Of a DNA stretch of 64,000 nt, positions 43,910-61,382 are shown piece after piece (the stretch's first letter is position 1; every line of letters begins with the position of its first letter). Source of the DNA: Chloroflexi bacterium OHK40 (GTDB lineage: Bacteria; Chloroflexota; Chloroflexia; Chloroflexales; Chloroflexaceae); assembly GCA_004367505.1 (NCBI GenBank), contig SFCB01000014.1, forward strand, positions 1 to 64,000, in the 5' to 3' direction. The notes beneath the pieces are model-generated. The model did not search any database. It was given only the letters and a program-made list of their open reading frames with translations, and was not told where the DNA came from. The translations under genes were made by a program, and so were the position numbers.

Positions 43910-45283
43910 TCACGGCTCGATCACCAGGTAACTGGCCCCTGTCTGCACCTCCAGGGTGGCCACACCGCCCTCGACCGGGCAACTCACCGGTCCGCCATCA
44001 CGGTTGGTGCAGCGCACCGCGCCAGCGGCGGGTAATGGGATGGCTACCGCCCGGGGGCTGTCGCTCCAGACAGCGACGATCGTGTCGCCGTCACGCGTAA
44101 AGATGTAGCCCTCCACATCCTCGGGCACGCCGCCGAGGGTGCCAACATAGGACGAGCGGGCCAGGGTGCGGCTGGCGTGGCGGTAGGCGAAGTAGCCCGG
44201 GCGCGGTACCAGCACGTCGCCCGGCTCGATCAGCGCGGTGTTGTGGTATGAGTCGTTGTCGTAGACGTACCAGATATTGCCGGCCAGCCCATCGCGGATG
44301 GTGCGGGTGAACAGCCGTGAGAGGAAATCGGCCTGAGCCCAGCGGCATTCGGCCGTCACCTCGGTGCAGAGCAAGGCGCCCTCGGTGCGCAGCAAGGGCT
44401 TCTCGGGTACGCCGTAGCGGGCCAGGAGCTCGCGCAGGTAGCTTACCCGCCAGTCTTGCCGCGCGCCGAGCGGTGGCTGGCCCGGGGTGTACCAGAAGGT
44501 GTACGCATGAAAGGAGAGGATATCAAAGGAGTTGCCGGCGCCGGCCACGAGCATCCCCTCGAAGAAGCGCCCGATCAGTGAGTCGGGGTTCGCCGGATCG
44601 TAGGGCCGATCGAGCAGCAGGCCGCCGTTGAGCACCTGCACCTCAGGCGCGGCGGCCTTGATCGCCGGATACACGACATTGAGCATCGCGCCGAAGGCCC
44701 GCCCGCCAAAGTACGGGTCGCTCTTGATCCCCCAGCAGCCGAAGACGGAGTCGCTCTGGAAGAGTGGTGCGTCGGGCTCGTTGCCGATCTCCCAGTAGCG
44801 CATGTTGTAGGGCGGCCCGCTGTAGCGCCGGGCTACCTCGGCCATGAAGCGCGCAAACTTTCCATACTTGGCGGGATTGATCGGCGCGCAGTCGGCAGTG
44901 TAGGGCTCGGTGGCCCAGCGCGGGCTGGCGTAGACGGTGATCACCAGCTTGAGCCCTAGCTCGCTGGCGGTGATCATGTCTTGCTCCAGCGCCTTGATCG
45001 CCGGGTCGTCCCAGGTGTAGCCACCATCCTCCACCGGCTCGACGAGCTTCCAGTGCAGCGCACCACGGCGCACCCAACCGGTGCCCGAGCTGCTCATCAG
45101 GCGGAGCCCGCGGTCGGTTGTGAGTTGCGACATTTCGATCCCGAAGGTGTTGTCGGGCACCACCCCTTGCCTGAGCAGCGGTAGGAAGACGCTAGTCGAA
45201 CCATGCTGTGCCGTGGCGGGGGCAATGCTGGCGGTCAGGGTAATCAGCGAGAGGGCGGCGAGGAAGGGTAGGATTCGCTGCAT
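43910..45283 (-). CDS. Secreted GH39-like glycoside hydrolase (paralogue 2)
   Basis: About 457 residues. A signal peptide (MQRILPFLAALSLITLTASI, cleavage near APATAQ) precedes a TIM-barrel hydrolase. Acid/base Glu169 is in RYWEIGNEPDAP and nucleophile Glu301 in LLRTEGALLC. It matches the enzyme at 14462 nearly block for block (WVRRGAL, SPRWA, CAPINP, PPYN, CWGIKS, GGLLLDRPYDP, IWYVYDNDSYHNTALIEP). ATG 45283 is used. It lies at the start of the polysaccharide operon, transcribed the same way, as PslG does in Psl clusters. Substrate unknown. Confidence 0.86.
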   Translation of the reverse strand: MQRILPFLAALSLITLTASIAPATAQHGSTSVFLPLLRQGVVPDNTFGIEMSQLTTDRGLRLMSSSGTGWVRRGALHWKLVEPVEDGGYTWDDPAIKALEQDMITASELGLKLVITVYASPRWATEPYTADCAPINPAKYGKFARFMAEVARRYSGPPYNMRYWEIGNEPDAPLFQSDSVFGCWGIKSDPYFGGRAFGAMLNVVYPAIKAAAPEVQVLNGGLLLDRPYDPANPDSLIGRFFEGMLVAGAGNSFDILSFHAYTFWYTPGQPPLGARQDWRVSYLRELLARYGVPEKPLLRTEGALLCTEVTAECRWAQADFLSRLFTRTIRDGLAGNIWYVYDNDSYHNTALIEPGDVLVPRPGYFAYRHASRTLARSSYVGTLGGVPEDVEGYIFTRDGDTIVAVWSDSPRAVAIPLPAAGAVRCTNRDGGPVSCPVEGGVATLEVQTGASYLVIEP

Positions 45284-45358
45284 AGGCTCCTGCATGCGGT
45301 AAGGGGCGCTGGCCACCGGGGGCGCCGGGGCCTCTGCGGTGACCAGTGGCCCTCGGCA

Positions 45359-47326
45359 CTACGGCGCGCCTACCTCGACGATGAGCGGCTCGAAACCGAC
45401 CACGAAGGTTGGGGTGAGGGCGCGCGGCTCCCCGAGCATAGTATAGAGCGCACGGGCACCGTCCGGCAACGACAACTCTCGCGCTGAGCCGTCATTGGTC
45501 CAGTAGATCGTGTAGGCCGTCGAGCCCTTGCGGAAGCGGTAGCTCTCCAGCGGGCCGTCGCTGCTCCGCCCATCGTAGGTGGCGCCCGCGAGCAACTGGC
45601 CGATGAAACGCAGCGCGGTGTAGGTGGGTCGCGGGTTCTGGCCGGCGTCGAGCAGGCCGCTCTCCTGCCATCCGGGGCCGTTGAGGGTGTACCAGAGCAT
45701 TCCGTAGAGCCCCTCGGCGTAGCTACGCGCAACCAGACGTACGGCGTAGTTGGCCTGGTCTTCGTAGAATCCCTGCGGGCCGCAGGTCGGGTCGCTGCGG
45801 TAGCAGATCAGCGATCCCTCATTCAGCAGGATCGGCTTATTCACACCGTAGGCGGCCATCGCATCGCGCAGTACGTCGAGCTTGCCGGCGAGCGAGCCGC
45901 CCCGCTGCTTCCACTTAGGGTGGTTGATGTCCCAGTCTTCCTGGACCGGCCCCCAGTAGGGGTAGCTGTGGAAGGCGAGGATATCAAAGGCCGCTCCAGC
46001 GCCCTGTTTCAGCATACCTTCGAAGAAGCGACCGGAGGCGCACGGCGCAGGCCCGGCGGGATCGCAGTCCATCAGCAGGCCGCCGGTGACGACGAGCGCC
46101 GCGGGATTGGCAGCCTTCACTGCGGGGTAGACGGCCTTGAGCATCTCGGCGTAGGCGCCCCCGCCGTAGTCGGCGTCGCGCTCGTTGCCCCAGCAGCCGA
46201 ACGGGGAGTCTCCGGGCAAGAGCTGGTAGGGTGCATCGGGCTCGTTGCCAAACTCCCAGTGGCGCACGTTGTAGGGCGGTCCGCTGTAGCGTGTGACCAT
46301 CTCGCCAACGAAGGCCGCGAACTCGTCGAGGGCGTCGGTCCGGATGGGGCCACACGCCTTCCCACGCTCGCGCTGCGCCCAGGCGGGGGCGCCGCTGACG
46401 ATCACCAGTGGCGCCGCACCGGTGGCACTGATGGCAGCCAGTTCGGCCTCGAGCCCCGCGAGCGCGGCCCAGTTGCGGGTGCCCCTCGTGGCCTCAACCA
46501 CCCCCCAGTCGACCATGTTGTAGCGGACCATAGTACTCCCCAGTTCAGGGAGCCGCCCAGCCGTGGCACCGACCGTCCCACGGTTGATCTCGACACCGAG
46601 GAGTGGGGCCGGCGTCGCTGGCGCGCCGAGCGGGGCGGAACCCGACCCCTCATGCACCTCGCGGCCGAGGAGGCCGAGCAGCACTTTGAACTGGTCAGGG
46701 TTGTCGGGGTGCCACTCGAAGCGGGCGCGCTCGAACCACTGGGTAAGGATCAGCTCGCCGTTGGGGCCGGGCTCGGGGTTGGCGGGGGTGAGCGGCAGCC
46801 CGAAGAGCGCAAGCGACTGCTCGTAGCGGTTCAGGCCGGCAATGCGCAGGCCGTTCCCCTCCCAGTAGCGCTTGAAACCGAGGCCGGGGGCCTGGTCACA
46901 GACGTTGTGGCGCGTCTCGGGGAACCAGAGGCAGCCCGGCTCGGGGCCAGGTTCACCGCCATCGGCCCAGTGGTCGCGTCCGAGTTGCTCCAGACGTTCG
47001 GCGCCCACACGGCCGATCAGCACGTTGTACGGGGCACGATTCTCCGGGTGGAGCTCCAGGCGGTTGCGTTCAGTCCACTGGGCGGACACGGGCGCGTCGG
47101 CGCCGGCTGGCGTGTACGGGCCGAGGGGGCCAAGCGGGTAGCCAAACACGGGCAGGCCACCATTGCCGCGCCAGTACGCGGCGAAGGCGGGGTCAATGCA
47201 GTTGGCCACATTGGGCACGCCGGGGAAACAGATCGGCTGCTGCTGGGCTACCGGCGCGGCTGCGGCGGGCACGGCCAGCGGCGCCAGGGCGCAGGCGAGC
47301 AGCAGGGCAAATCGTCGCAGGGGCAT
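45359..47326 (-). CDS. Secreted GH39-like hydrolase with N-terminal surface repeats (paralogue 3)
   Basis: About 655 residues. After a signal peptide (residues 1-25) come two copies of a roughly 90-residue repeat known from Chloroflexota surface proteins: FGYPLG with QWTERNRLELHPEN (60-105) and YWEGNGLRI, FGLPLT with QWFERARFEWHPDN (150-222). The C-terminal hydrolase domain has Glu362 in RHWEFGNEPDAP and Glu503 in LLNEGSLICYR. The start is ATG 47326, with GGAGGAG upstream. The repeats probably anchor or position the enzyme on the cell surface or sheath. A -10 TATACT lies at 47360-47365. Confidence 0.85.
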   Translation of the reverse strand: MPLRRFALLLACALAPLAVPAAAAPVAQQQPICFPGVPNVANCIDPAFAAYWRGNGGLPVFGYPLGPLGPYTPAGADAPVSAQWTERNRLELHPENRAPYNVLIGRVGAERLEQLGRDHWADGGEPGPEPGCLWFPETRHNVCDQAPGLGFKRYWEGNGLRIAGLNRYEQSLALFGLPLTPANPEPGPNGELILTQWFERARFEWHPDNPDQFKVLLGLLGREVHEGSGSAPLGAPATPAPLLGVEINRGTVGATAGRLPELGSTMVRYNMVDWGVVEATRGTRNWAALAGLEAELAAISATGAAPLVIVSGAPAWAQRERGKACGPIRTDALDEFAAFVGEMVTRYSGPPYNVRHWEFGNEPDAPYQLLPGDSPFGCWGNERDADYGGGAYAEMLKAVYPAVKAANPAALVVTGGLLMDCDPAGPAPCASGRFFEGMLKQGAGAAFDILAFHSYPYWGPVQEDWDINHPKWKQRGGSLAGKLDVLRDAMAAYGVNKPILLNEGSLICYRSDPTCGPQGFYEDQANYAVRLVARSYAEGLYGMLWYTLNGPGWQESGLLDAGQNPRPTYTALRFIGQLLAGATYDGRSSDGPLESYRFRKGSTAYTIYWTNDGSARELSLPDGARALYTMLGEPRALTPTFVVGFEPLIVEVGAP

Positions 47327-47434
47327 ACGGGCTCCTCCAGGGTATGCGGTCGCCCGGGGAGTATACCTGATCTCAGCAGAAAGGGTGGAGGGGGGAGCAA
47401 GCCGGGACGAGAGGCGCGCCGCGCGACACAACAA

Positions 47435-48814: not shown

Positions 48815-48907
48815 GGGAGGGAGGTGCCCTCGCGAAAGGGGAGGGAGGGTCTGAGCTCCTCTCGTCGCATCGGCCACTGGTCCAGCGTAGCGATGCTTGA
48901 AGCAGCG

Positions 48908-48916
48908 TGGTATATT
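48908..48916 (+). promoter_or_regulatory. Extended -10 promoter of the HerA-type gene
   Basis: TGG-TATATT (48908-48916), about 35 bases before the ATG at 48951; the -35 is weak, as usual for extended -10 promoters. Confidence 0.4.
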
Positions 48917-48950
48917 TGTGCTACCAGATCGGTCGATAGAGGAGCGCCCT

Positions 48951-50564
48951 ATGCAGCCACGCACCAGGCTCGGCGTCGTGACAAGCGGCTCACTCATGGA
49001 AGGGCTGACGGCGCGGCTCGAGGCCCGTGAAAGCGTCGAGGATATGCGCGTCGGCAAGTTCGTCGTGATCCAGGGCGAGAAGCACGAGTTCTTCTCGATG
49101 ATCACTGATGTGGCGCTCGAGGCTACCAACCAGAAGGTGCTGATCGACCCTCCGAACGGCGACAGCTTCTTCCACGAGGTCCTCGCTGGCACCTCAACCT
49201 ACGGCACCCTGGAACTGATGCCACGCCTGATGCTCCCCAGCGACCTGAGCGAGCAGATGCTTCCCGTCAAGACGATCCCGCGCCACTTCTCACCCGTCTT
49301 CGAGGCTCGCGAGGAAGATTTCGGTCGCGTCTTTGGCAACGCCGGCGGCGACTCTTTTGAGATCGGGCGCCCCCTGGACATGGAGGTGCCCGTCTGTCTG
49401 AACCTTGCCCGCCTGGTCGAGCGCTCCAACGGGATCTTCGGTAAGAGCGGCACCGGTAAGAGTTTCCTCACCCGTCTGCTGATCTGCGGCGCCATCCACG
49501 CCGGTGTGGCCAGCAATCTGATCTTCGATATGCACAGCGAGTATGGCTGGGGTGCCCCCTCCGAGAGCGGTGCCTTTGTCAAGGGGCTGCGCCAGCTCTT
49601 TGGCAGCGATGTGCTCGTCTACACCATCGACCCGCGCGCCTCCCGCCGTCGCTCGTACGACGGCGAGCTGGTGATCGGCCTGGACCAGATCGAGGTCGAG
49701 GATGTGATCGCCCTGGAGCAGGAGCTTAACCTCAGCAGCACCGCCACCGAGTCGTCCTTCCTGCTCTTCGACCGCTTCCGCGAGCGCTGGCTCACGGCAC
49801 TCCTGGAGATGGATAGCGCGGCGATCGCTGAGTTCGCCGAGAGCAGCGGGGCCCACGCCGGCGCCATCAGCGCCCTCAAACGTAAGCTTGCCCGGATCTC
49901 TCGCCTCAACTTTGTGCGCGAGCAGGCCGACTTCTCGGCCGTCGATCGGCTGATCGACGCCCTGGCCGCCGGGCGCCACGTGGTGCTCGAGTTTGGCGAG
50001 CACGACAGCACGCTGATCTATATGCTCGTGGCCAATATTATCACCCGCCGCATCCACCGCCGCTGGGTTGACCAGACGAACCGGGCCATCCATTCGCAGA
50101 ACAGCGCCGACCGGCCCCGCCCGCTGATGATCACGATCGAGGAGGCCCACAAGTTCCTCAACCCCGCCACCGCTCGCCAGACGATCTTCGGCACGATCGC
50201 CCGCGAGCTGCGCAAGTATAGCGTGACGCTCCTGGTGGTGGACCAGCGGCCTTCGTCGATCGACCCGGAGGTGATGAGCCAGCTCGGCACGCGCATCACC
50301 GCCCTGCTCAACGATGAGCGTGATATCGATGCCGTCTTCACCGGGGTGAGCGGCGGCGCTGGCCTCAAGGCAGTACTGGCCTCCCTCGACAGCAAGCAGC
50401 AAGCCCTGGTGCTCGGCCACGCCGTGCCGATGCCGGTGGTGGTGCGCACCCGCCCCTACGACGAGGCCTTCTACGCCGCCGTGGCGCGCTACGGCCCGCG
50501 CCGTGCCGATCCCTCGCCGCCCCGCCCACCTCAGGAGGAGGTTGACGAGCTCTTCCCCGACTGA
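48951..50564 (+). CDS. herA: HerA-like hexameric DNA translocase/ATPase
   Basis: A 537-residue ATPase of the HerA/DUF87 (FtsK-HerA) superfamily. An N-terminal HAS-barrel (to about residue 120) precedes Walker A GKSGTGKS (164-171). The DMHSEYGWG stretch, Walker B MITIEEAHKF (near 390), the sensor VDQRPSSIDPEVMSQLG and the arginine-finger region TRITALLNDERDID follow. Archaeal and some bacterial HerA proteins work with NurA nuclease in DNA end processing; others act in defence systems. No nurA or other nuclease gene adjoins it, so it is a solitary copy here. ATG 48951 with AGAGGAG seven bases upstream. Confidence 0.9.
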   Translation: MQPRTRLGVVTSGSLMEGLTARLEARESVEDMRVGKFVVIQGEKHEFFSMITDVALEATNQKVLIDPPNGDSFFHEVLAGTSTYGTLELMPRLMLPSDLSEQMLPVKTIPRHFSPVFEAREEDFGRVFGNAGGDSFEIGRPLDMEVPVCLNLARLVERSNGIFGKSGTGKSFLTRLLICGAIHAGVASNLIFDMHSEYGWGAPSESGAFVKGLRQLFGSDVLVYTIDPRASRRRSYDGELVIGLDQIEVEDVIALEQELNLSSTATESSFLLFDRFRERWLTALLEMDSAAIAEFAESSGAHAGAISALKRKLARISRLNFVREQADFSAVDRLIDALAAGRHVVLEFGEHDSTLIYMLVANIITRRIHRRWVDQTNRAIHSQNSADRPRPLMITIEEAHKFLNPATARQTIFGTIARELRKYSVTLLVVDQRPSSIDPEVMSQLGTRITALLNDERDIDAVFTGVSGGAGLKAVLASLDSKQQALVLGHAVPMPVVVRTRPYDEAFYAAVARYGPRRADPSPPRPPQEEVDELFPD

Positions 50565-50589: not shown

Positions 50590-51327
50590 TCACAGCTCCC
50601 GCGCGGCCGCCTCGTCGAGCATCCACGTCACGCGGCCGGTTGGCGGGCGCACAATCTGAGCAGGCGTGGACACCGGGTCGTACGGGCCGCGCAGGGCCTC
50701 CCGCACTCTGGGGGCCTTATCGGCGCCGGACACCAGGAAGATGGCGCTCGCCGCCCGGTTCAGCGCAGCGGCGCCAAGGCTCACACGGGTTGGCGGCGGC
50801 TTCGGGGCGCCCTCCACCGCCAGCACGAGCCGCCCGGTCGGCGCGACGAGATCGGGCCGACCCGGGAAGAGTGATGCGGTGTGCCCATCGGGACCCATCC
50901 CCAGCAGGGCGATGTCGATCTGCCCGCCATGGGCCTCCAGCAGCGCCGCCACCTGCCGCTCGTACACCTCGGCCGCCTGCGCGACACCGTAGTACGTGGC
51001 CACCGGATAGACCTGTAGCGATGGGATCGGCACATGGTCCAGGAGCGTCTCGCGGGCCTGGCGGTAGTTGCTATCGGGGCTATCATAGGGCACCAGCCGC
51101 TCGTCGCACCAGATCACGCTCACCGCCTCCCAGGGCACCTTGCTCCGCAACGGCTCATCGCAGAGATGACGAAAAACCCCGGGGGGCGCCGTTCCGCCGG
51201 AGATGGCGAGGAGAACGCGGCCTCGCTCGCGGCCGGCGCCTTCGGCCAGGGTGGCGATGCGCTCGGCGGCAGCGAATTGCAGTGCCGCGAGGTCTGGAAA
51301 GATCAGCACCTCAGCCTGGTCGGCCAT
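50590..51327 (-). CDS. pgl: 6-phosphogluconolactonase
   Basis: A 245-residue enzyme of the DevB/Pgl type that hydrolyses 6-phosphogluconolactone to 6-phosphogluconate in the oxidative pentose phosphate pathway. LLAISGGTAPPGVFRHL, VSVIWCDERLVPYDSPDSNYRQA and IDIALLGMGPDGHTASLFPG are the three signature blocks, and the length is normal. GGAGGT lies six bases before the ATG. It converges with the HerA-type gene, 25 bases apart. No zwf or gnd gene adjoins it in this window. Confidence 0.95.
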   Translation of the reverse strand: MADQAEVLIFPDLAALQFAAAERIATLAEGAGRERGRVLLAISGGTAPPGVFRHLCDEPLRSKVPWEAVSVIWCDERLVPYDSPDSNYRQARETLLDHVPIPSLQVYPVATYYGVAQAAEVYERQVAALLEAHGGQIDIALLGMGPDGHTASLFPGRPDLVAPTGRLVLAVEGAPKPPPTRVSLGAAALNRAASAIFLVSGADKAPRVREALRGPYDPVSTPAQIVRPPTGRVTWMLDEAAAREL

Positions 51328-51393: not shown

Positions 51394-52374
51394 CTACGCC
51401 GGTGCTCGCAAGCCCACCGCTCCAAACGCGCGCAACGCCTCCTCGCGGGCAGCCTCGTAGGGCTCGGCACGGGTGTAGGCATAGCAGGCGAGCCAGTAAC
51501 AGCTCAGGGCGCGCATCAGGGGGAGCCGCTCCTGCTCGGCGGGGCTCAGGGGCCCGGCTGCGCAGTAACCCTCCAGGAGGCCCTCGCGCCAGGGCTGGGG
51601 GTAGAGGGGGCAGAGGCCACACGCCAGGTCGTAGAGACCATCACCGCCCACCCAGCGCCCGGGCTCTACCAATGCCTCCAGATGCACGTGGTCGCCAGCG
51701 GTGCAGCGGATGGCGTCGGGCCCGAATGCGCCGTGCAGCACCACCGGCTGCGCGATCTCTAGGCGCGGGTCGTCGAGTAGCGCCGCAGCGGTGGCCCGCT
51801 CGGCCTCGCCGAATACCAGCGCATCGACCGGCGCGGGAGCGAGGTGAGCGCCAATCTGGCGCAGCGCCTGGCCCCAGCGTAGCTGCCGCCAGCGGCCAGC
51901 CGGGGTAGGCCGCCCGCAACCGGGCGCGCTCAGCCGGTGCATCCGGCGCAGCGCCCGCCCGGCCTGGCGCCCGGCGCCTCGTAGCAGATGCTCGGATGGA
52001 AGCGCCGAGGCGGGCATCCCGGGAACGAAGCTCTCTAGCGTGTAGGCGAAGGGCACCATCGTCCGCGAGAGATCACGCTGGATGATCCGCGCCGACGGGA
52101 TGTTCTGGCCACTCAGGGTGCGCACAAAGAAGACGTGCGCCGCCAGGTCGTCCTCCGGCGCAATGCGCAGAATCAGGTACTCGACCGGAGTGGTGATACG
52201 CACCAGCAGGTGCCGCTCGGTCTGAGCGTGGAGGGCCACGGCGATCGGGCGCAGGTTCAGCGCGCGCAGCACCAGGGCGGTATAGTCGCCCAGCCGCCCG
52301 AGCGCCCGGCGCCAGGCCTCGCTCACACCCTCCGCGACGGGAGGGATGTAGTGATTCAGCTGATGATAGTCCAT
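51394..52374 (-). CDS. Aminoglycoside-phosphotransferase-fold protein lacking catalytic residues
   Basis: A 326-residue protein with the layout of the APH/choline-kinase-like family: an N-lobe (LLVRITTPVEYLILRIA), a hinge TLESFVPG and a helical C-lobe with GAGRQAGRALRRMHRL. The Brenner motif, normally H-G-D-x-x-x-x-N, reads HGAFGPDA (residues 214-221), so both the catalytic Asp and the Asn are Ala. The DxD metal motif reads EALVEPGRWVGGDGLYDLA with Glu in place of Asp. It is therefore probably inactive as a classical kinase. It lies 16 bases downstream of the propeller-fused membrane protein gene and may serve it. Confidence 0.7.
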   Translation of the reverse strand: MDYHQLNHYIPPVAEGVSEAWRRALGRLGDYTALVLRALNLRPIAVALHAQTERHLLVRITTPVEYLILRIAPEDDLAAHVFFVRTLSGQNIPSARIIQRDLSRTMVPFAYTLESFVPGMPASALPSEHLLRGAGRQAGRALRRMHRLSAPGCGRPTPAGRWRQLRWGQALRQIGAHLAPAPVDALVFGEAERATAAALLDDPRLEIAQPVVLHGAFGPDAIRCTAGDHVHLEALVEPGRWVGGDGLYDLACGLCPLYPQPWREGLLEGYCAAGPLSPAEQERLPLMRALSCYWLACYAYTRAEPYEAAREEALRAFGAVGLRAPA

Positions 52375-52390: not shown

Positions 52391-55300
52391 TCAGGGCGCC
52401 GCCCGCACGGTGGGCAGCGTGAAACGCAGGGCCCGGTTGAGCGCCCGGTCGGCGACCCAGACGCTCCCGTCGGGGGCGACAGCCAGGCCGCTCGGGCTCG
52501 TCAGCGAGGCGAGGTCGTTGCCTGAGCCACCCCAGCGTAGCAGCATGTCGCCCCGCAAGTTGAAGGCGATGACCTCATTGCTACTCGGCACGCTCACGTA
52601 TACCTGGCCATCGGGGCTAGCGGCAATCGAGGGGTCGTCGTAGGTATTCGGGCGCCAGCCGCTCACACGCCAGGTGACGATTGGGATGGGGCCGACGCCG
52701 CCGCTGCCATCCGGGGCGAAGACCTGCACCCGACCGTTCCAGGTGTCGGCGACGTAGAGGTTACCCTGCGCATCAACGGCCACGCCGGTGGGCTCGTTAA
52801 AGGCGCCGGGCTCGCTGCCACCATAGCCAAACTGGTAGCGGAAGTTGCCCTCCGTATCAGTGACGACGATCCGCTTGTTGCCGGTGTCGGCGATGTAGAC
52901 GTTCCCCCGCCCGTCTACCGCAACGCCACGGGGGCCGAAGAGCCCGAGCGGATTAGCCTCGTTCGCGGCCCGGTCGCCCTCGGTGATCGTCGCGCGGCGA
53001 CCATCACCAAGTTCCTGGTTTCCACTGCCCCACGCGGCCACCGGCTGGCCATTCGGGCTGTACTTGACCACCCGGGCATTCCAGGTATCGGCCACGTAGA
53101 GGTAGCCCTCGGCGTCCACGGCGAGGCCACGGGGCTCGTAGAACTGCCCGAGCTCGCTGCCGAGGCCGCCAGAGCTGCGCAGCAACTCGCCGCCGGGGCT
53201 ATAGACGTGGATCTGGTGGGCGCCGGTGTCGGCCACGTAGAGGTTGCCCTCGCCATCGGTGGCTACGCCGGTGGGCCCGTTCCCACCCGGGGGCAGGGTG
53301 ATCGCCTGCTGGGCAACCAGACGCAACTCGGGGCTAGCCGGAGCACCAGCCGCCTCACCCACGCCGGCCGCCAGATCCCGCCGTAGCCAGACCTCCATCT
53401 CACGGGCGCCGGGCACCAGTGGGTAGGGCAGCTCGCGGTAGAGCAGGAACTTGCTCAGGGTGCCCCAGTTCTCGCTCTGCAGCGGCCAGAGGATCGGCGC
53501 GAATGGCCCGTTCAACTCGGCGCTGATATCGCGGCCGCAGCCACCGGAGCCACCCGAGCCGCCGGTCCGCAGCAACTCCTCAGTCGGCGTCCAGGTGCTG
53601 TAGTAGAAGCGCTTGTAGCCGGGGCTCTGGGGTGAGCATTTATCGCCCTCCGGGAACCACCAGTTAAAGACCCCGGTCGCGCCATATGGTTGCACGTAGT
53701 TCTGGCCGAGCACCTCGCGCACCGGCTCCGTCACGTGGGGCTTGTAGAGCATCACCACCGGCGCGAGGGCCGTGCTGCCATCGGGCATTTGCACCTCGAA
53801 GGCGGCGCCCGGATCGCTCTGGAACACATCCTTCTTCCGCCACTCGACACGCTTAAAGTCGCGGAAGTACCACTGCAGCGGCCAGGCCAGCGAGCCCTCA
53901 CCGCCCTCATCGCCGCTATCGATGACCACCGGCATGCTCAGGCCGCCGGTCACGTCCTCGGGGGTGCGCTGGCCACGGGTGAGGTTCACCGCGAGCTCGC
54001 GCACATCGGCCACATAGCGCGGCACATCCGGGGCCGTCTGAGTATAGACCAGCAACTCCACCGGCGTGTCGGGGTGCTCATAGACCGCCAGCCATGTGGC
54101 GCGGATGGTCGAGGCGCCCACCAGGGCGGCCAGGGTGAGCCCGGCCAGCGCGAGCACCACACGCCCGCCGAGCGCGCTCGCGAGGGTGAGCAGGGCGTAG
54201 AGTAGCCCACCGGCGATCAGCAGGGGCACCAGCCCCTGGAGCAGGTTCCGCTGCGCCGTCTGCCCCTCTGCGGTCATGCCGAAGCGCCAGAGCGCTACCG
54301 CCACCGCCACCGCAGCCAGGAGCGTCAGCAGCGGAACGAGGGCTCGCTTCCATCTCTGCCTGTCACCCTGGGGGGTGAGCAGGAGATCATCCGGAGCCGC
54401 CGGGTCGGCCTCAGCCGGCGCGCGCGCTCCGGCAACAGCGAGGAGGCGAGCGATCACCCAGGCGGCGAGCAGGTTACCCGGCAAGGCCATATGCACCACC
54501 AGCCAGGGCATCTTCTCACCAGCCCAGGAGAAGATAATCAGCGCGCACCAGAACCAGAAAACGCAGAGCAGCGGGTAAAGCTCCCACGGTTGGCGCGCGG
54601 ATGGGCCAGGCAGGCCTGGCTGCGGGCGCATCCCGGCTGTCTCTGGCTCCAACGTCTCGGCATCGGCGGCAGGTGTGGCGTCAGGGCCGTCAGCAACGGC
54701 ATCCTTCGCCCGTCGCCGTCCATCGACAAAGCGCTGCACCACAGCCACGACCATCGCCACCACCGTGCCCACACCCGCGAGGACGGCGAGGGGCTCATAC
54801 AGTGGCAGCTGCATCAGGTAGTAGTACCAGGGCTGGTCGCCGCGGGCATACTCCTGCTGGCTACCGAGCCAGTAGGCCAGGCCGGCGTAGAGCCCATCGA
54901 TGGCGCCGGGCATGTAGGCGAAGAACGACGAGTAGAGCACCAGGTAGATCGCGCCAAGGATCGCCAGCGCCGTCCAGAGGATGGGGCGCTGCTCGAACCA
55001 GAGCGTTTGCAGGCGAGGCGTGAGCAGCGGCGTAGGATCCCAGAGCCGCTGGCAGAGCCATGCCAGCAGGAAGGCCGAGGCTACGAGGAAGGCCTTCTCA
55101 CCGAAGTAGAGGCCCTGGCCCACCGGGATGCGCGGGTTGAACAGCATCAGGGCAAGGCACACGCCCATCACCGCGAGCAGGAAGCTATTCAGGTAGCGGG
55201 CGAAGCGACTCTCGGCCAGCAGGCGCATGAGCACGAAGACGCCGAAGATGAAGAAGAGGATATAGTAGAGCTCGTGCGTAGCGATGGCCAGCGCTACGGC

Positions 55301-55909
55301 GGCGGCGGTGAGGTAGAGCCAGCGGGCTTTGCCGGTGTCCACCCAGCGCAGCGCCCCGATCAGCATCCACAGCTCCCAGAGCACCATCAGTCCATCGTGG
55401 CGGGCGAAGCGGGTGTAGTAGAGCAGCGAGGGCGAGAAGCCGAGCAGGGCGGCGGCCACCAGCGCACCACGTTGCCCCAGGTAGGGCCGGAGCCACCAGG
55501 CCGAGGCCACCATCACGATGCCCGCGATCGCCATCGGCAGGCGCGCCTGGGCGTCACCATCACCGAAGAGAAAATACGCGAGCGCCGTGAGGTAGTAGAG
55601 CGACGGCCCGTGGTACACCGGGTCGTAACAGTAGGTAGGCGCCGTTACACCACCACGGGCCTGACCGTTTTCGTCGAGGCCGCCCCAGCAATTGAAGGCG
55701 CCAGCCCCGGTGTAGAGCCGCCAGCTCGACCACGCGTGGATGCTCTCATCGTGGTGCATGGCCATGCGCCCGAGGCCCCAGAGGTGGGCCACAACGCTGG
55801 CGACGACGATCAGGGCGTAGGCCGCCACCTCCCAGTTCATCCGGGTTAGCAGCACCGGGCGGCTCAGCAGCGCCGGGCGGGGGGCAGAGTCGAGGGTCTC
55901 AAGTGCCAT
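52391..55909 (-). CDS. Agl23/TIGR03663-type membrane protein fused to an NHL beta-propeller
   Basis: A 1172-residue protein. The N-terminal half has about twelve helices with MHHDESIHAWSSW (Asp54, Glu55) in the first loop and YHGPSLYYLTALAYFLFGD, marks of the TIGR03663 flippase-activity-associated (GT-C-like) family. A soluble loop domain follows, and residues about 880-1172 form six NHL-type blades (GPTGVATDGEGNLYVADTG, EPRGLAVDAEGYLYVADTW, GPRGVAVDGRGNVYIADTG and so on). It is paralogous to the next gene upstream, which lacks the propeller. The extracytoplasmic propeller may bind protein or glycan. Known members affect protein N-glycosylation in archaea; its bacterial role is unclear. Confidence 0.85.
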   Translation of the reverse strand: MALETLDSAPRPALLSRPVLLTRMNWEVAAYALIVVASVVAHLWGLGRMAMHHDESIHAWSSWRLYTGAGAFNCWGGLDENGQARGGVTAPTYCYDPVYHGPSLYYLTALAYFLFGDGDAQARLPMAIAGIVMVASAWWLRPYLGQRGALVAAALLGFSPSLLYYTRFARHDGLMVLWELWMLIGALRWVDTGKARWLYLTAAAVALAIATHELYYILFFIFGVFVLMRLLAESRFARYLNSFLLAVMGVCLALMLFNPRIPVGQGLYFGEKAFLVASAFLLAWLCQRLWDPTPLLTPRLQTLWFEQRPILWTALAILGAIYLVLYSSFFAYMPGAIDGLYAGLAYWLGSQQEYARGDQPWYYYLMQLPLYEPLAVLAGVGTVVAMVVAVVQRFVDGRRRAKDAVADGPDATPAADAETLEPETAGMRPQPGLPGPSARQPWELYPLLCVFWFWCALIIFSWAGEKMPWLVVHMALPGNLLAAWVIARLLAVAGARAPAEADPAAPDDLLLTPQGDRQRWKRALVPLLTLLAAVAVAVALWRFGMTAEGQTAQRNLLQGLVPLLIAGGLLYALLTLASALGGRVVLALAGLTLAALVGASTIRATWLAVYEHPDTPVELLVYTQTAPDVPRYVADVRELAVNLTRGQRTPEDVTGGLSMPVVIDSGDEGGEGSLAWPLQWYFRDFKRVEWRKKDVFQSDPGAAFEVQMPDGSTALAPVVMLYKPHVTEPVREVLGQNYVQPYGATGVFNWWFPEGDKCSPQSPGYKRFYYSTWTPTEELLRTGGSGGSGGCGRDISAELNGPFAPILWPLQSENWGTLSKFLLYRELPYPLVPGAREMEVWLRRDLAAGVGEAAGAPASPELRLVAQQAITLPPGGNGPTGVATDGEGNLYVADTGAHQIHVYSPGGELLRSSGGLGSELGQFYEPRGLAVDAEGYLYVADTWNARVVKYSPNGQPVAAWGSGNQELGDGRRATITEGDRAANEANPLGLFGPRGVAVDGRGNVYIADTGNKRIVVTDTEGNFRYQFGYGGSEPGAFNEPTGVAVDAQGNLYVADTWNGRVQVFAPDGSGGVGPIPIVTWRVSGWRPNTYDDPSIAASPDGQVYVSVPSSNEVIAFNLRGDMLLRWGGSGNDLASLTSPSGLAVAPDGSVWVADRALNRALRFTLPTVRAAP

Positions 55910-55970: not shown

Positions 55971-58454
55971 TCAGGGCTGGTCTGCCCCGTTCAATGAGCC
56001 GCCAAGCCCGACCCCGATCTGGTCGGCGAGCTCAGGCCGGACGGCGATCACAAAGTCGGTGGAGCCGAGCGGATTGCCGGGATCGCGAAACATGAGGAAG
56101 CGCCACCAGCGCTCACCCACCCCCCGATCGAAGGGGTTGCGCAATAGCTGCCCGAGCAGGGAGCTCTGTTCGAGCGGCACATCGCGCCAGCCTGGTCCGA
56201 GCCGGTAGACCTGGTCTTCCGGGAACCACCAGCGCAGCGGGTAGCGCTGCACGACGAAGCCATCGAGCAACTCCCGGTTTTCGGGAAAGCGATCCAGATG
56301 CTCCTGCAGCAGCAGCACCGCCACCACGCTCTCGTCGGGTGGCACCGCCAGTTGCCCGCTGCCGCGCTGGGCCGCTGTAAAGTCGCGCAGGTACCAGCTC
56401 CAGACCGTCTCGTTGTCGTAGATCACCGGAAGGGCCAGCCCGCCACCACGGCGCCGCGAGACCTCTTCCAGCCGCCGCACGACTTGCATCACATCGGGCG
56501 AGGTCTGGGTGTAGACCATCATCTCCACGGGCACATCGCCGTTGATGTAGGCCAGGCGCACCGCCGAGCGGGCGGTGTAGAGACCGAGTGAGAGCCCGAT
56601 GCCCACCGCGAGCATCGCCACGGCGTGGCCCCAGCCCCAGCGCAGGCCAGCGCCAACCGTCAGCAGGGCCACCAGGAGGAGCGCCGCAGCGGGCACCATC
56701 CAGGGCAGCACGAGTACGGCCGCCTGCTCACCAAAGTTGACGACGGCGGTCATCAGGACGAAGCTCAGGCCGACAATCGCGGCAAAGAGCGCCCCATAGA
56801 TCACCCACGGGGAGAGGGTGACATGCTCGGCCAGCGGCCCGAGCCACAGACCCCGCCCGCCGTGCCAGCGTGGCTGCCCATCGGCGTCCAGGATCGGCCC
56901 GGCCTCCTCGTCCCGCGCCCGGTTCCAGATCACGCGCTGGGCCGCCCAGGCCCCCAGCAGCGTGAACGGCAGAGTGATATGGATCGTCAGCCAGGGCATC
57001 TTCTCACCGGCCCAGGTGTAGATCCCGAGCGCCGCGAGCGCCCACCAGGCCAGAAGACTTATGCAAAACGGATTGCGCACGGTCGCCGTGCCACGGTGCA
57101 TGCTCCAGAGCTCGTAGGCCACGAGCCCGAGCCCCAGAACCCCGAAGATCAGCAGCAGGGGCTCATAGACACCGAGGAGAAAAAGGTAATAGTGATCGGG
57201 CTGGCCACCGCGCTGAACGTTATGCTGGGCCAGCCAGTAGAGCAGCGAGCCAGCAGTGCCGCTGAAGAGCCCGATGATATTGGTGAAGAACGCGGTGAAA
57301 AAGACCGCATAGATCGCCAGAAAGACGGCCAGGGCAACCAACCAGCGCCGGCCCTCGCCAAGGCTGGCGAAGACAGCGGCGGCCTGCGCGTCGCGCTCGC
57401 GGGCCACCTCCCAGGGCGTCTTCCCATCGGGGCCAGGCCGGCGCCAGATCAGGTAGACGAGGGCGGCGATTGTGCCCAGTACGAGGCCGATCGCCAGCAG
57501 CACAGCGGGGTGGCGGAAGAAGCTCCAGAGGTCGGCGAGGTAGAGGGCAAGGTTCGCGGCCAGGCCCCGGCCGCCGTCGTCGTCGGCGCGGTTGCGCACC
57601 CGCAGGGCGTAGCCGTTATCCTCCGTCTCCAGCGGCCCCCAGCCAAAGAGCCCGGGCCGCTCCACCAGCATCGCGCCCGTGGCCGGATCGCGCACGGCGT
57701 GGTGGGCTCCGTCCACCTGAGCGGTGCCGGGCGCCACAAAGATCAACAGCGCCACCAGCACGCCCAGGGCGGCCACCAGCCCGATCCCGGGCCGGTAGAC
57801 CTGCCAGAGAAACGCGACGGCGAGGGGCGCCACCATGATCAGCAGGAAGAGGTAGCTCGTCTCCTGATTGACGAACATCAGCCCGAAGGCCACCACTCCA
57901 GTGAGCAGCCAGGCCGGCCGGCGCGTTGCCGCATAGCGCACAATGGCAGTGAAGACGAGCATCTCGCAGAGCACTGAGTAGATGTCGTGGCGAAAAAAGC
58001 GGCCCACATAGAGCGCCACCGGCGAGATCAGCAGATAGACGGCGGCAATGAGCGCGGCCGGGCGGCCAAGGTCGCGCCGGAGCAAGTAGGGCGAGAGCGT
58101 CAGCGCCGTGCCCGCGAGCGCCGGGCCGAGCCGGGCGGTGAAGTCGTTGTCCCCGAAGAGGAAGTAGAACAGGGCCCCGAGATAGTAGAGCAGCGGGCCG
58201 TGGAGCAGCGGATCGTGGATGTAGCCGCGACCGACAAGCAGGTACCAGGAGTAGGAGGCGTGGAGCGTCTCGTCGTGGTGGAGCGCGCGGTCACCCAGGG
58301 CCCACAGGTGGGCGATCAGGGCGATCACGCCGAGGGCGAGGTAGACCAACTGCTCGACCGTGAGCGACCATGGCCGGGCGAGGACGGCTGTGCCGGCGGC
58401 GCCCGTGGCCGGCTCGTTGGCGGCCTGGGGCCGCAGCAGCTCAAGCGTGGACAT
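55971..58454 (-). CDS. Agl23/TIGR03663-type membrane protein
   Basis: An 827-residue polytopic protein. The first loop carries LHHDETLHASYSW (Asp61, Glu62) and HGPLLYYLGALFYFLFGDN, matching its neighbour at 52391 position by position. Middle blocks IYTWAGEKMPWLTIH and VEMMVYTQTSPDV also recur there, and the C-terminus ends without a propeller. Family TIGR03663 is GT-C-like; the Asp-Glu pair is placed like a catalytic site for a polyprenyl-phosphate-sugar donor. The two genes probably form one unit with the phosphotransferase-fold gene, since gaps are 61 and 16 bases. A substrate cannot be named. Confidence 0.87.
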   Translation of the reverse strand: MSTLELLRPQAANEPATGAAGTAVLARPWSLTVEQLVYLALGVIALIAHLWALGDRALHHDETLHASYSWYLLVGRGYIHDPLLHGPLLYYLGALFYFLFGDNDFTARLGPALAGTALTLSPYLLRRDLGRPAALIAAVYLLISPVALYVGRFFRHDIYSVLCEMLVFTAIVRYAATRRPAWLLTGVVAFGLMFVNQETSYLFLLIMVAPLAVAFLWQVYRPGIGLVAALGVLVALLIFVAPGTAQVDGAHHAVRDPATGAMLVERPGLFGWGPLETEDNGYALRVRNRADDDGGRGLAANLALYLADLWSFFRHPAVLLAIGLVLGTIAALVYLIWRRPGPDGKTPWEVARERDAQAAAVFASLGEGRRWLVALAVFLAIYAVFFTAFFTNIIGLFSGTAGSLLYWLAQHNVQRGGQPDHYYLFLLGVYEPLLLIFGVLGLGLVAYELWSMHRGTATVRNPFCISLLAWWALAALGIYTWAGEKMPWLTIHITLPFTLLGAWAAQRVIWNRARDEEAGPILDADGQPRWHGGRGLWLGPLAEHVTLSPWVIYGALFAAIVGLSFVLMTAVVNFGEQAAVLVLPWMVPAAALLLVALLTVGAGLRWGWGHAVAMLAVGIGLSLGLYTARSAVRLAYINGDVPVEMMVYTQTSPDVMQVVRRLEEVSRRRGGGLALPVIYDNETVWSWYLRDFTAAQRGSGQLAVPPDESVVAVLLLQEHLDRFPENRELLDGFVVQRYPLRWWFPEDQVYRLGPGWRDVPLEQSSLLGQLLRNPFDRGVGERWWRFLMFRDPGNPLGSTDFVIAVRPELADQIGVGLGGSLNGADQP

Positions 58455-58583: not shown

Positions 58584-61046
58584 TCAGGCTGGCTCCAGGG
58601 TCAGCAGCGCCGTGGTGGCGCGCTCGACGGCCGCGCGGCTCCAGAGCAGCGGCAGGTACCCTCCCGCCCGCCAGGCGCCGGCCATATCCAGGTAATGGCT
58701 GCTCGCCGGGTGTCCGCTCTGGCCCGCCGGCAGAATGATCCGCGCCGCGTCCCAGTCGCCGGGGTCGAGGATCTGGCGGTACGACGGCGCGTTGTAGACG
58801 GGGCCAGCGGCCGTCTCCCGGGGGGTATAGTGCTGGTTCACGGTGTCGCTATCGCCGCCAGTGGGCCAGGGGCCACGGTTGAAGATCGGCGCGAGCGCCG
58901 GCACCGCGCCCAGGGCGTGGCGCAGGGTCAGCGCGTGCACCCGCCCGTAGTGCCAGCGGGCCGGATCAGGCCCCAGCCGCCCGCGCAACTCCTCGACGTC
59001 GAGGCGCAGAGCCTCAGCCAGCAGGCCGCCCCAGCTGCGCCCCCCGCCCAGCCAGGGATCGGGCTGCTCCAGGCCATACACCTCGATCCGGGCGAGGAGC
59101 CCGGGCAACGAGCGGCCAAGATAGACGTTGGCAGGAATGCTGCCAAAGGCCCCGAGACCGCTCCGGGCGCGGAGTAGCTCGCCGAGCTCGGCGAAGGCCA
59201 GCCGCTCCAGGTGGTATCGCAGCGCATCATAGATGGCGCCGGGCACACTCTCCGCAGTCAGGTCGCCGTCCCAGGCGGCCAGCCGATCGCGGGCGTCTCG
59301 GAGCAGCGGATCGTCGGGCTCGATCCGGGCCACCAGGCTGGCCAGACGCAGACCGGGCAGGGAGCAAAAGTCGTTCTGGATGCGGGCAAAGCTGCGCACG
59401 TCGTGGCGCTCGGTTGCCGTGAGCAGCCGGGTGATCCGCTCCGCGCGATAGGGGTTCGCGTACTCGCCGTGGATCGCGTTGTGGTAGGGGTGATCGGCGG
59501 CGGCAATGCGGTGGTTGGCAGTCACCGCCAGGCCCGCTGGCGGATCGAAGCTGAAGGGCAGCGCTCCAGCGGGAATGAAGCCCTGCCACTCGTGGGCGCC
59601 GTCCCACCCGGGCACGGGGAGTTGGCCATCGCCCTGAGCCCGGATGGGGAGCTTGCCGGCCAGGGTGTAACCGAAATGTCCATCGACGTCGGCGTAGACG
59701 AAATTCTGCGGCGGCACGTCCCAGTCCTCAAGGGCGGCGCGGAACTCACCCCAGTCGCGGGCCCGGTTGAGGCGCAGCACCGAGCGGGTGAGCGCAGGCG
59801 AGGGGTCGAGCGCCGTCCAGCGCAAGGCCAGGGCCTCGCGGGTGCGCGGCTCGCCGGGCCGTGAGAGGAGCGGGCTACGCTCGGGGCCGGCCACCTCGTC
59901 GATCACCGGGCCGTGATGGGTGATGCGCACATCGTGGAGCACGACTTCGCGCTGGCCCTTCACCACGATCTCCTCGCGCACGAGCTCGGCATCGCGCCAC
60001 TCGCCCCGCCACTCGTAGCGCAGGGGGTCGTCGGGGTGAAAGCGCTCCAGGTACAGATCCTGGTTATCGGTGGCGGCGTTCGTCTGGCCCCAGGCGATAC
60101 GGGCATTGTGGCCAATGATGATCCCGCATGTGCCCGGGATGGTCACCCCGGCGGCCCGGTAGTCGCCACCCTCGATATGGGCGGCATACCACAGCCCAGG
60201 GAGGCCGATGCCGAGGTGCGGATCATCGGCGAGCAGCGGGCGACCCGTCGCGCTGCGCTCGCCGCCAACTACCCAGGCGTTGGAGCCCTGGCCAGCACCC
60301 GGCTCGCCGGTGAAGCGTGCGGCCTCTTCGGCCAGGCGCAGCGCCCCATCGCCGAGGTGGGCCGGGTAGTGGGCGCCGGGCGGCACCGTGATCGGGGCCT
60401 CGTCGGGGTAGCGGGGAGCCAACTCGGCGGCCCGCTCGACGCCCAGGGCAGCGACAGCCTGGGCGTTGAAGAGCTCGCTCGTCCAGTTCCCGGAGAGGGT
60501 GAGCGCCATCACCTTCGGCCAGACGAGAATATCGGCGAGCTCCCAGGGGCGTGGCTGCAGGCCGAGGATGGTGAACTCCAGCGCCAGACGCCCTCGGCTC
60601 GCCTCCAGACAGGCGTTCACACCCCGCAGGTAGGCCTCAAGCACGCCACGGGTGTCATCATCCAGCAACTCGGCCTCGCGGCGGGCGAGGCGCGAGAAGC
60701 CCAGCGTGCGGATGAACCGGTCCGAGCTGAGCGCCACCGGCCCGAAGAGCTCGGCGAGCTGGCCGTGGCCGGTGCGCCGGTTCAACTCCATCTGCCAGAG
60801 CCGGTCCTGGGCGTGCACATAGCCGAGGGCGGCGAAAAGGTCGGCGTTGCTCGCGGCGTAGATGTGGGGCACGCCCCAACGATCGCGGCGCACCTCGGCC
60901 CGGGCGGCGAGCCCGTGCAGGGGCAGGCGACCCGTAGTGCGGGGCAGGGGGCGCCGCAGGGCGGCCACGGCGCCCACGCCGGCGGCACCGGCGGCCAGGC
61001 CAACCGTCAGGCCAACGGCGCGTGCGAGGCGCGAGAGATCGAACAT
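58584..61046 (-). CDS. Penicillin-acylase-family (Ntn) hydrolase
   Basis: An 820-residue Ntn hydrolase of the penicillin amidase family, with an N-terminal membrane helix (residues 11-30) that could be a signal or anchor. The A-chain has VRRDRWGVPHIYAASNADLF and GYVHAQDRLWQMELNRR. The self-cleavage site and nucleophile are in GQGSNAWVVGG (Ser255), and the B-chain has GVTIPGTCGIIIGHNARIAWG. Relatives hydrolyse amides, including penicillins and acyl-homoserine lactones, outside the cytoplasm; the substrate here is not decidable. ATG 61046 has AAAGG seven bases upstream. Confidence 0.93.
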   Translation of the reverse strand: MFDLSRLARAVGLTVGLAAGAAGVGAVAALRRPLPRTTGRLPLHGLAARAEVRRDRWGVPHIYAASNADLFAALGYVHAQDRLWQMELNRRTGHGQLAELFGPVALSSDRFIRTLGFSRLARREAELLDDDTRGVLEAYLRGVNACLEASRGRLALEFTILGLQPRPWELADILVWPKVMALTLSGNWTSELFNAQAVAALGVERAAELAPRYPDEAPITVPPGAHYPAHLGDGALRLAEEAARFTGEPGAGQGSNAWVVGGERSATGRPLLADDPHLGIGLPGLWYAAHIEGGDYRAAGVTIPGTCGIIIGHNARIAWGQTNAATDNQDLYLERFHPDDPLRYEWRGEWRDAELVREEIVVKGQREVVLHDVRITHHGPVIDEVAGPERSPLLSRPGEPRTREALALRWTALDPSPALTRSVLRLNRARDWGEFRAALEDWDVPPQNFVYADVDGHFGYTLAGKLPIRAQGDGQLPVPGWDGAHEWQGFIPAGALPFSFDPPAGLAVTANHRIAAADHPYHNAIHGEYANPYRAERITRLLTATERHDVRSFARIQNDFCSLPGLRLASLVARIEPDDPLLRDARDRLAAWDGDLTAESVPGAIYDALRYHLERLAFAELGELLRARSGLGAFGSIPANVYLGRSLPGLLARIEVYGLEQPDPWLGGGRSWGGLLAEALRLDVEELRGRLGPDPARWHYGRVHALTLRHALGAVPALAPIFNRGPWPTGGDSDTVNQHYTPRETAAGPVYNAPSYRQILDPGDWDAARIILPAGQSGHPASSHYLDMAGAWRAGGYLPLLWSRAAVERATTALLTLEPA

Positions 61047-61382
61047 CGAGCGACACCTTTCATGGCAGGTGCGGGCCGGGTCGGCCAGCGACCGAGTGCG
61101 GTACCCTGTCAACCGCGCGAGCGATAAGATCTATAATACAGCAACCTCAGCAGAACCAGGAACTGAGAACCTCAAGCGCCCCCACATCACCACATCGACA
61201 ACGCTCATACGACGCCATCCTGAACTGCTACGACATCGCGAACCGCCACGCCACGCGACGACCGCCGCACCACGACGCCGCGCGCAAAGTAGAACCCGGA
61301 TGGAACCACCATCCATCGCTATACTATACATATCGCGCTCAGCCGCTACAGGTCTTCCACCCATGACAGGCGCTACCGAGCT

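Follow-up and report, generated by a model that had tools for sequence, protein, structure and literature searches.

The EmbA-EmbB arabinosyltransferases are a pair of proteins of the glycosyltransferase C fold (GT-C) with outer carbohydrate-binding modules, and we know of no NHL propeller in this pair, nor of any transferase of the ArnT, oligosaccharyltransferase (OST), ALG or PMT type that carries one. Pmt1-Pmt2, also a GT-C dimer, has a luminal, beta-rich, carbohydrate-binding MIR domain whose residues influence processivity (PMC7759382), and flippase activity is reported for Agl23 of Haloarcula hispanica (PMC11182771). Here we describe two neighbouring genes in a window (the whole stretch of DNA analysed, 64,000 nt from Chloroflexi bacterium OHK40, assembly GCA_004367505.1, contig SFCB01000014.1), of which one, LONG, encodes an Agl23-type membrane protein joined to an NHL propeller, and the other, SHORT, a paralogue that has none. 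In Chloroflexota such pairs of related GT-C membrane proteins usually carry one outward propeller, in some lineages on the copy whose active site has decayed, which suggests that the two work as one machine. Our preferred explanation, to which we give a probability of about 0.4, is that LONG and SHORT are two subunits of a single outer-face GT-C glycosyltransferase that takes a polyprenyl-phosphate-linked sugar donor and shares one acceptor-docking propeller.

The propeller protein and its paralogue

The two genes and the features of LONG, all on the minus strand, are as follows.

52391 to 55909, minus strand: LONG, GT-C (TIGR03663/Agl23-type) membrane protein with a C-terminal NHL propeller; open reading frame (ORF) of 1172 amino acids (aa)
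54077 to 55834, minus strand: membrane core of LONG, residues 26-611, 15 transmembrane (TM) helices, from model helices, hydropathy and a positive-inside count
55745 to 55756, minus strand: HHDE motif, residues 52-55, first outer loop, from the alignment
55604 to 55612, minus strand: HGP motif, residues 100-102, from the alignment
54503 to 54520, minus strand: GEKMPW motif, residues 464-469, outer loop, from the alignment
53360 to 54076, minus strand: outer domain with a WPLQWYFRDF stretch, residues 612-850, from model and conservation
52406 to 53329, minus strand: six-bladed NHL beta-propeller, residues 861-1168, from Pfam NHL and structural matches
55971 to 58454, minus strand: SHORT, GT-C protein of 827 aa that lacks a propeller; it lies 61 nt upstream of its paralogue LONG, same strand

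The original prediction had read LONG as a TIGR03663-type membrane domain fused to six NHL blades, and this reading stands: LONG scores 246.9 bits against TIGR03663 (E 4e-73; curated cut-off 126.25), its Pfam matches are PMT_2 and NHL (NHL E 2e-39), and in its AlphaFold2 model (mean predicted local distance difference test score, pLDDT, 88.9; predicted template modelling score, pTM, 0.79) the propeller strands group, on a manual count, into six four-stranded blades, a number that comes from the model, as Pfam itself marks five NHL stretches, or four in a stricter scan. The outer domain lies between the last TM helix and the propeller. No MIR domain was found in LONG by a Pfam scan at E 0.1, although PMT_2 matches, which sets it apart from the MIR-bearing PMT proteins. 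The core is assigned to GT-C by its homology to SHORT, TIGR03663 and PMT_2, and is to be read as a putative GT-C domain; the fold search was run on LONG as a whole, not on the core alone, and its results, crowded by propellers, hence list no GT-C structures.

The top structural matches of LONG are NHL domains with Z scores of about 30 to 41, namely those of Thin (6xg7, Z 41.3, root-mean-square deviation 1.7, 272 residues), TRIM71 (7qrx, Z 39.5) and the extracellular part of PknD (1rwi, Z 30.6). These share the propeller fold with LONG but sit on E3 ligases and a kinase, whereas that of LONG sits on a GT-C membrane protein; LONG also falls short of the ScyF cut-off, scoring 158.6 bits against 350 (NF035926). 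The PknD match, together with a propeller that has no known ligand, would be consistent with a sensor, spacer or stabiliser like the PknD domain, with no role in acceptor binding, yet a Pfam scan found no signalling domain in LONG and four families keep the propeller although the core next to it is decaying (see below), and we regard this explanation as quite improbable.

SHORT also passes the TIGR03663 cut-off (217.3 bits), and Pfam finds no NHL in it at E 0.1, in line with the propeller-less neighbouring paralogue that had been predicted; among the SHORT-type proteins scanned, TIGR03663 was matched by 38 of 38 and NHL listed for none of the 38. Its model (pLDDT 89.6, pTM 0.91) is nearest to ArnT (5f15, Z 19.7, 433 residues, 3.7 A), followed by a yeast OST chain (Z 19.0), AglB (18.9), ALG12 (18.6) and a Pmt1-Pmt2 chain (16.8), with EmbA-EmbB weaker than ArnT (7bvf, Z 13.1; 7bvc, Z 12.8). 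Although identity to the OST, AglB, ALG, PMT and ArnT structures is only 8 to 18%, the predicted fold of SHORT is that of GT-C proteins, and a transferase function is predicted from it; fold and TIGR03663 membership together support the earlier description of these proteins as glycan-handling. A promoter scan, which was not used as evidence, gave three matches where 0.7 were expected; one of these ends some 45 nt before the SHORT start. A tblastn search with SHORT against a plasmid collection returned no plasmid-borne copy at E 1e-3.

The TIGR03663 model (435 positions) spans the membrane core only and accounts neither for the propeller nor for the pairs, described below, in which one partner is degenerate. 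The DE and HGP motifs, which we take to be motifs of the family, occur in both LONG and SHORT by alignment. NCBIfam names TIGR03663 "flippase activity-associated protein Agl23", and from this name we presume that the H. hispanica protein is a member. LONG and SHORT, both above the family's cut-off, might then flip or scramble lipid-linked sugars, the role put forward for that protein, with the propeller docking an outer partner, and purified HhAgl23 is indeed reported to have carried M5GN2-PP-Phy across liposomes (PMC11182771). What speaks against a flippase, which we consider unlikely, is the GT-C fold of the model together with D, E, H, R and EK residues that are conserved, as in transferases, in loops placed outside.

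Topologically, the 15 TM helices of LONG, assigned by hand from model and hydropathy, place the N-terminus inside and the C-terminus outside. With the N-terminus inside, the share of lysine plus arginine is higher in inside- than in outside-called loops in all 83 rows of alignment A4 (mean 0.163 inside versus 0.054 outside, loops up to 120 aa), and this orientation puts the propeller and the outer domain outside, together with the conserved HHDE, HGP, RHD, QPWYYY and GEKMPW stretches. The predicted topology thus supports the extracytoplasmic propeller that had been proposed, on the same side as the putative active site.

The fusion is conserved (labels below: G, genome, with G000 that of the window; L, locus; f, family). 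The LONG match reaches into the propeller in every one of the family's 41 genomes. In the single-contig genomes G006, G007 and G009 it extends nearly end to end, from residue 12-14 to 1168, while in 7 of the 41 (G002, G004, G018, G019, G020, G029, G037) it is truncated where a contig ends or broken up over different frames. An assembly artefact, the concern raised with the prediction, is therefore not what produced the fusion. Among the best 80 of 553 relatives, ranked by similarity to the window protein, which yielded 79 named loci, the fusion was found only in Chloroflexota and all 79 loci are Chloroflexota by title, including Oscillochloris, Chloroflexus, Roseiflexus, Herpetosiphon, Leptolinea, Caldilineaceae and Anaerolineales. 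The near relatives with names belong to Chloroflexales, and the window's class is accordingly taken to be Chloroflexia. TIGR03663 matches occurred in 4 of 14 control genomes, above the cut-off in two. Searches of one open-access library turned up neither a fusion of this type nor the logic of the LONG/SHORT pair.

Pair architecture and decayed active sites

Two sets of loci were read, a first set of 101 including the window and the named set of 79, with some genomes in both, and a pair was defined as two genes on the same strand with a gap of up to 600 nt. First-set loci were hand-picked from TIGR03663 matches, mostly the best ones, so that lone degenerate genes would be missed. L185 and L186, from metagenome-assembled genomes, were left out before counting, as the LONG gene, and in L186 SHORT as well, appears broken up over different frames. 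L130, L148 and L161 of the first set, and L187 (396 aa, cut) and L209 of the named set, had no scored GT-C ORF reaching 440 aa.

Adjacent pairs numbered 59 in the first set and 32 in the named set, with gaps of at most 250 nt in 57/59 and 30/32. A propeller is present in 50 of the 59 first-set pairs, always on the downstream gene, and no pair in either set (0/59, 0/32) has it on the upstream gene alone. Active sites were scored on one alignment at 21 conserved positions with SHORT as reference, a protein being called intact if at least 14 were kept and degenerate if at most 12, with nothing falling between. LONG is identical to SHORT at 21/21. Reading upstream to downstream, the first-set pairs with a propeller comprise 28 intact-intact, 9 intact-degenerate and 13 degenerate-intact, and those without it 6 intact-degenerate, 2 intact-intact and 1 degenerate-intact; the named set holds 15 intact-intact and 16 degenerate-intact pairs with the propeller downstream and one intact pair with a propeller on both genes. 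The last, L245:744-7001, with tandem propeller-bearing GT-C genes, is the sole pair with two propellers. At least one partner is intact in 59/59 and 32/32 pairs. Lone genes in the first set were 12 intact with propeller, 24 intact without, 2 degenerate without and 1 degenerate with; those in the named set were 37 intact with propeller, 1 intact and 1 degenerate without, and 5 N-terminally cut (L212, L215, L221, L227, L241), which score as degenerate with propeller because part of the N-terminus is missing and are not true degenerates. No natural fusion of both partners, which would have spoken for a complex, was accepted: a 1624-aa open frame in G168 was rejected, L109 showing a stop codon between the genes, and the 511 extra N-terminal residues of L110, with no TM-like stretch and no Pfam or partner-profile match, are most likely an over-extended frame.

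The distribution of decay is what carries the argument for one machine, because in some lineages the propeller is kept on the copy whose active site has decayed. A degenerate propeller-bearing partner occurs in four families of the window's class (f10, f11, f12, f14), and outside that class many pairs combine a degenerate upstream gene with an intact partner that bears the propeller. Over 47 degenerate proteins (counted without the five cut singles, L068, L188 and rows dropped earlier), HGP, R155 and EKMPW are complete in none, R152 is kept in 40 and the D of the DE pair in 9, set against 213 with D and 212 with E among 214 intact-classed proteins. By these residues the putative active site of the degenerates appears broken, although residual activity is possible. 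Within the DE pair, 45/47 degenerates keep the E but only 9/47 the D, which hints at a structural role of the glutamate. Among the degenerates scanned, L067 and L077 pass the TIGR03663 cut-off and L068, L069, L070, L074, L075, L112, L123 and L165 fail it.

The alternative of two separate enzymes made from one operon, each handling a different sugar and with a propeller that binds only LONG's own acceptor, bears most directly on these counts. Neither site looks decayed in the window's order, where every unbroken pair examined has two partners classed as intact; SHORT and intact LONG form separate clades (support 99 and 97); and lone propeller-bearing genes are common. All of this would suit two enzymes, but the retention in f10, f11, f12 and f14 of a degenerate propeller partner beside SHORT is difficult to account for if that partner acts as an enzyme of its own, and we hold this alternative to be rather doubtful, though the strongest of those considered.

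Evolutionarily, the trees were quick ones (Shimodaira-Hasegawa-like approximate likelihood ratio test, SH-aLRT, or FastTree support; alignment A1 comprised 35 proteins picked for a propeller match), and one degenerate group was left out per tree, the first such tree also lacking the row of L065. Once the degenerates of other classes are set aside, the window-class ones fall in with LONG (26 rows, support 96). When instead the window-class degenerates are omitted, one branch (support 90) divides 38 rows, holding the other classes' degenerates, LONG and the L109 type, from 47 rows, holding SHORT and the other classes' catalytic propeller proteins. In the propeller tree, the propellers of the degenerate partners join the LONG propellers of L059, L060 and L063 (f5, f8; support 94), and the degenerate partners have a common T..R..D.TGG-like stretch in the outer domain. 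On these alignments, the degenerate propeller partners of the window's class look like LONG orthologues, and, with moderate support, the subunit that bears the propeller seems to be of the LONG type in the window's class and of the SHORT type in other classes.

A possible shared propeller and the points against it

Functionally, we posit that each subunit would contribute a GT-C core in the membrane whose active site points outwards, and that one working site could suffice, one of the two having decayed outside the window's order. The propeller would hang outside beside the active sites and serve both subunits, where its probable task is to hold an acceptor, either a protein of the surface or a glycan being extended, close to the catalytic subunit; that it recruits a target or polymer, as had been proposed from LONG itself, is plausible. 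The two proteins would most likely associate as a dimer fed by a lipid-linked sugar. This holding of the acceptor is likened to the supposed role of the luminal MIR domain in Pmt1-Pmt2, which is the nearest functional analogy for a probable LONG/SHORT dimer (PMC7759382); the MIR domain, however, is a beta-trefoil, whereas here the domain is a six-bladed propeller, borne by one partner, and catalysis may be lost in one of the two. As for the paralogue, which had been noted merely for lacking the blades, the absence holds, but the comparative data suggest that both genes are often one unit with a single propeller. More tentatively still, the dimer may be an unequal one that kept one propeller while the working site shifted, the propeller subunit being a dead scaffold in some lineages and catalytic in others.

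Several observations weigh against a single shared machine. No doubly degenerate pairs were found, and this zero is weak evidence because independent decay events are few. A propeller is missing from nine of the 59 first-set pairs and from the degenerate partners in f9 and f13 (L065, L071, L073, L163, L166, L167). Lone propeller-bearing genes occur at 12 of the 98 first-set loci with a GT-C ORF and at 37 of the 79 named loci; some lie at contig ends or have a distant or truncated partner (L057, L190, L200), but many others have no such excuse. Degenerate sites are not blank, the E of the DE pair persisting as noted above and both residues being present in 8/47 (L074, L168, L065, L072, L133, L134, L201, L238). 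In the full trees all degenerates cluster together on long branches, and the reported flippase activity of H. hispanica Agl23 (PMC11182771) also stands on this side.

Sequence divergence gives no separate argument. Mean identity among nine degenerate propeller proteins is 32% in the core, 33% in the outer domain and 47% in the propeller, compared with 42% for SHORT cores from eight of the same genomes; the intact LONG of f5, f6 and f8 show a similar contrast (propeller 44%, core 33%), those of f2-f4 having 43% in the core and 48% in the propeller, and those of f1 65% and 64%. As the contrast is not special to degenerates, the argument for one machine lies in the retention of the propeller, not in its rate of change.

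Gene neighbourhood and implications

Three further genes lie close to the pair in the window.

51394 to 52374, minus strand: APH-like kinase gene (APH 3.9e-12), directly downstream of LONG
50590 to 51327, minus strand: 6-phosphogluconolactonase, from NCBIfam and synteny
58584 to 61112, minus strand: penicillin-amidase family protein, upstream, from Pfam and synteny

All three recur in only part of the family's loci, and among the loci compared the APH-like gene neighbours the pair only in the window's family. Neighbour families were defined as BLAST clusters with one member each named by Pfam. Of the 53 first-set loci outside the window's class, 40 have DUF2298-cluster proteins near the pair, 16 have LPG_synthase_TM-cluster proteins and five have third GT-C proteins with NHL (and PA14 in those scanned); the DUF2298-cluster proteins lie upstream of the pair in 80/82 cases over both sets and are adjacent in 0/48 loci of the window's class. 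The company of DUF2298 and LPG_synthase_TM would fit the handling of lipid-linked sugars. The window's genome also encodes three tandem TIGR03662 (Chlor_Arch_YYY) domains (G000:C27:599-8790, L248-L250), two of them in one 2663-aa frame.

Downstream of the pair, a second class of large proteins combines a GT-C (PMT_2) core with PA14 and NHL by Pfam (L188:8586-12023, L201:12823-19982, L214:13432-17742), and L118:135-3794, L143:12193-15888 and L150:14743-18465 likely belong to it (NCBIfam only: NHL-type, weak TIGR03663). Elsewhere in the window, the neighbouring and mutually similar genes at 43910-45316 and 45359-47434 look glycoside hydrolase-like by eye and have no Pfam match at E 0.01, and a HerA-type ATPase (DUF87, HAS-barrel) at 48897-50564, on the other strand beside the cluster, is present in eight loci.

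If LONG and SHORT do form one glycosyltransferase with a shared propeller, Chloroflexota would hold natural GT-C pseudo-glycosyltransferases whose retained part is the outer propeller. Scaffolding and acceptor docking would then be separable from catalysis, making the role of accessory domains on GT-C dimers directly testable, and the pair would point to a surface-glycosylation route in a phylum with a little-studied cell envelope. The Agl23 family, too, could then be understood in terms other than flippase activity.

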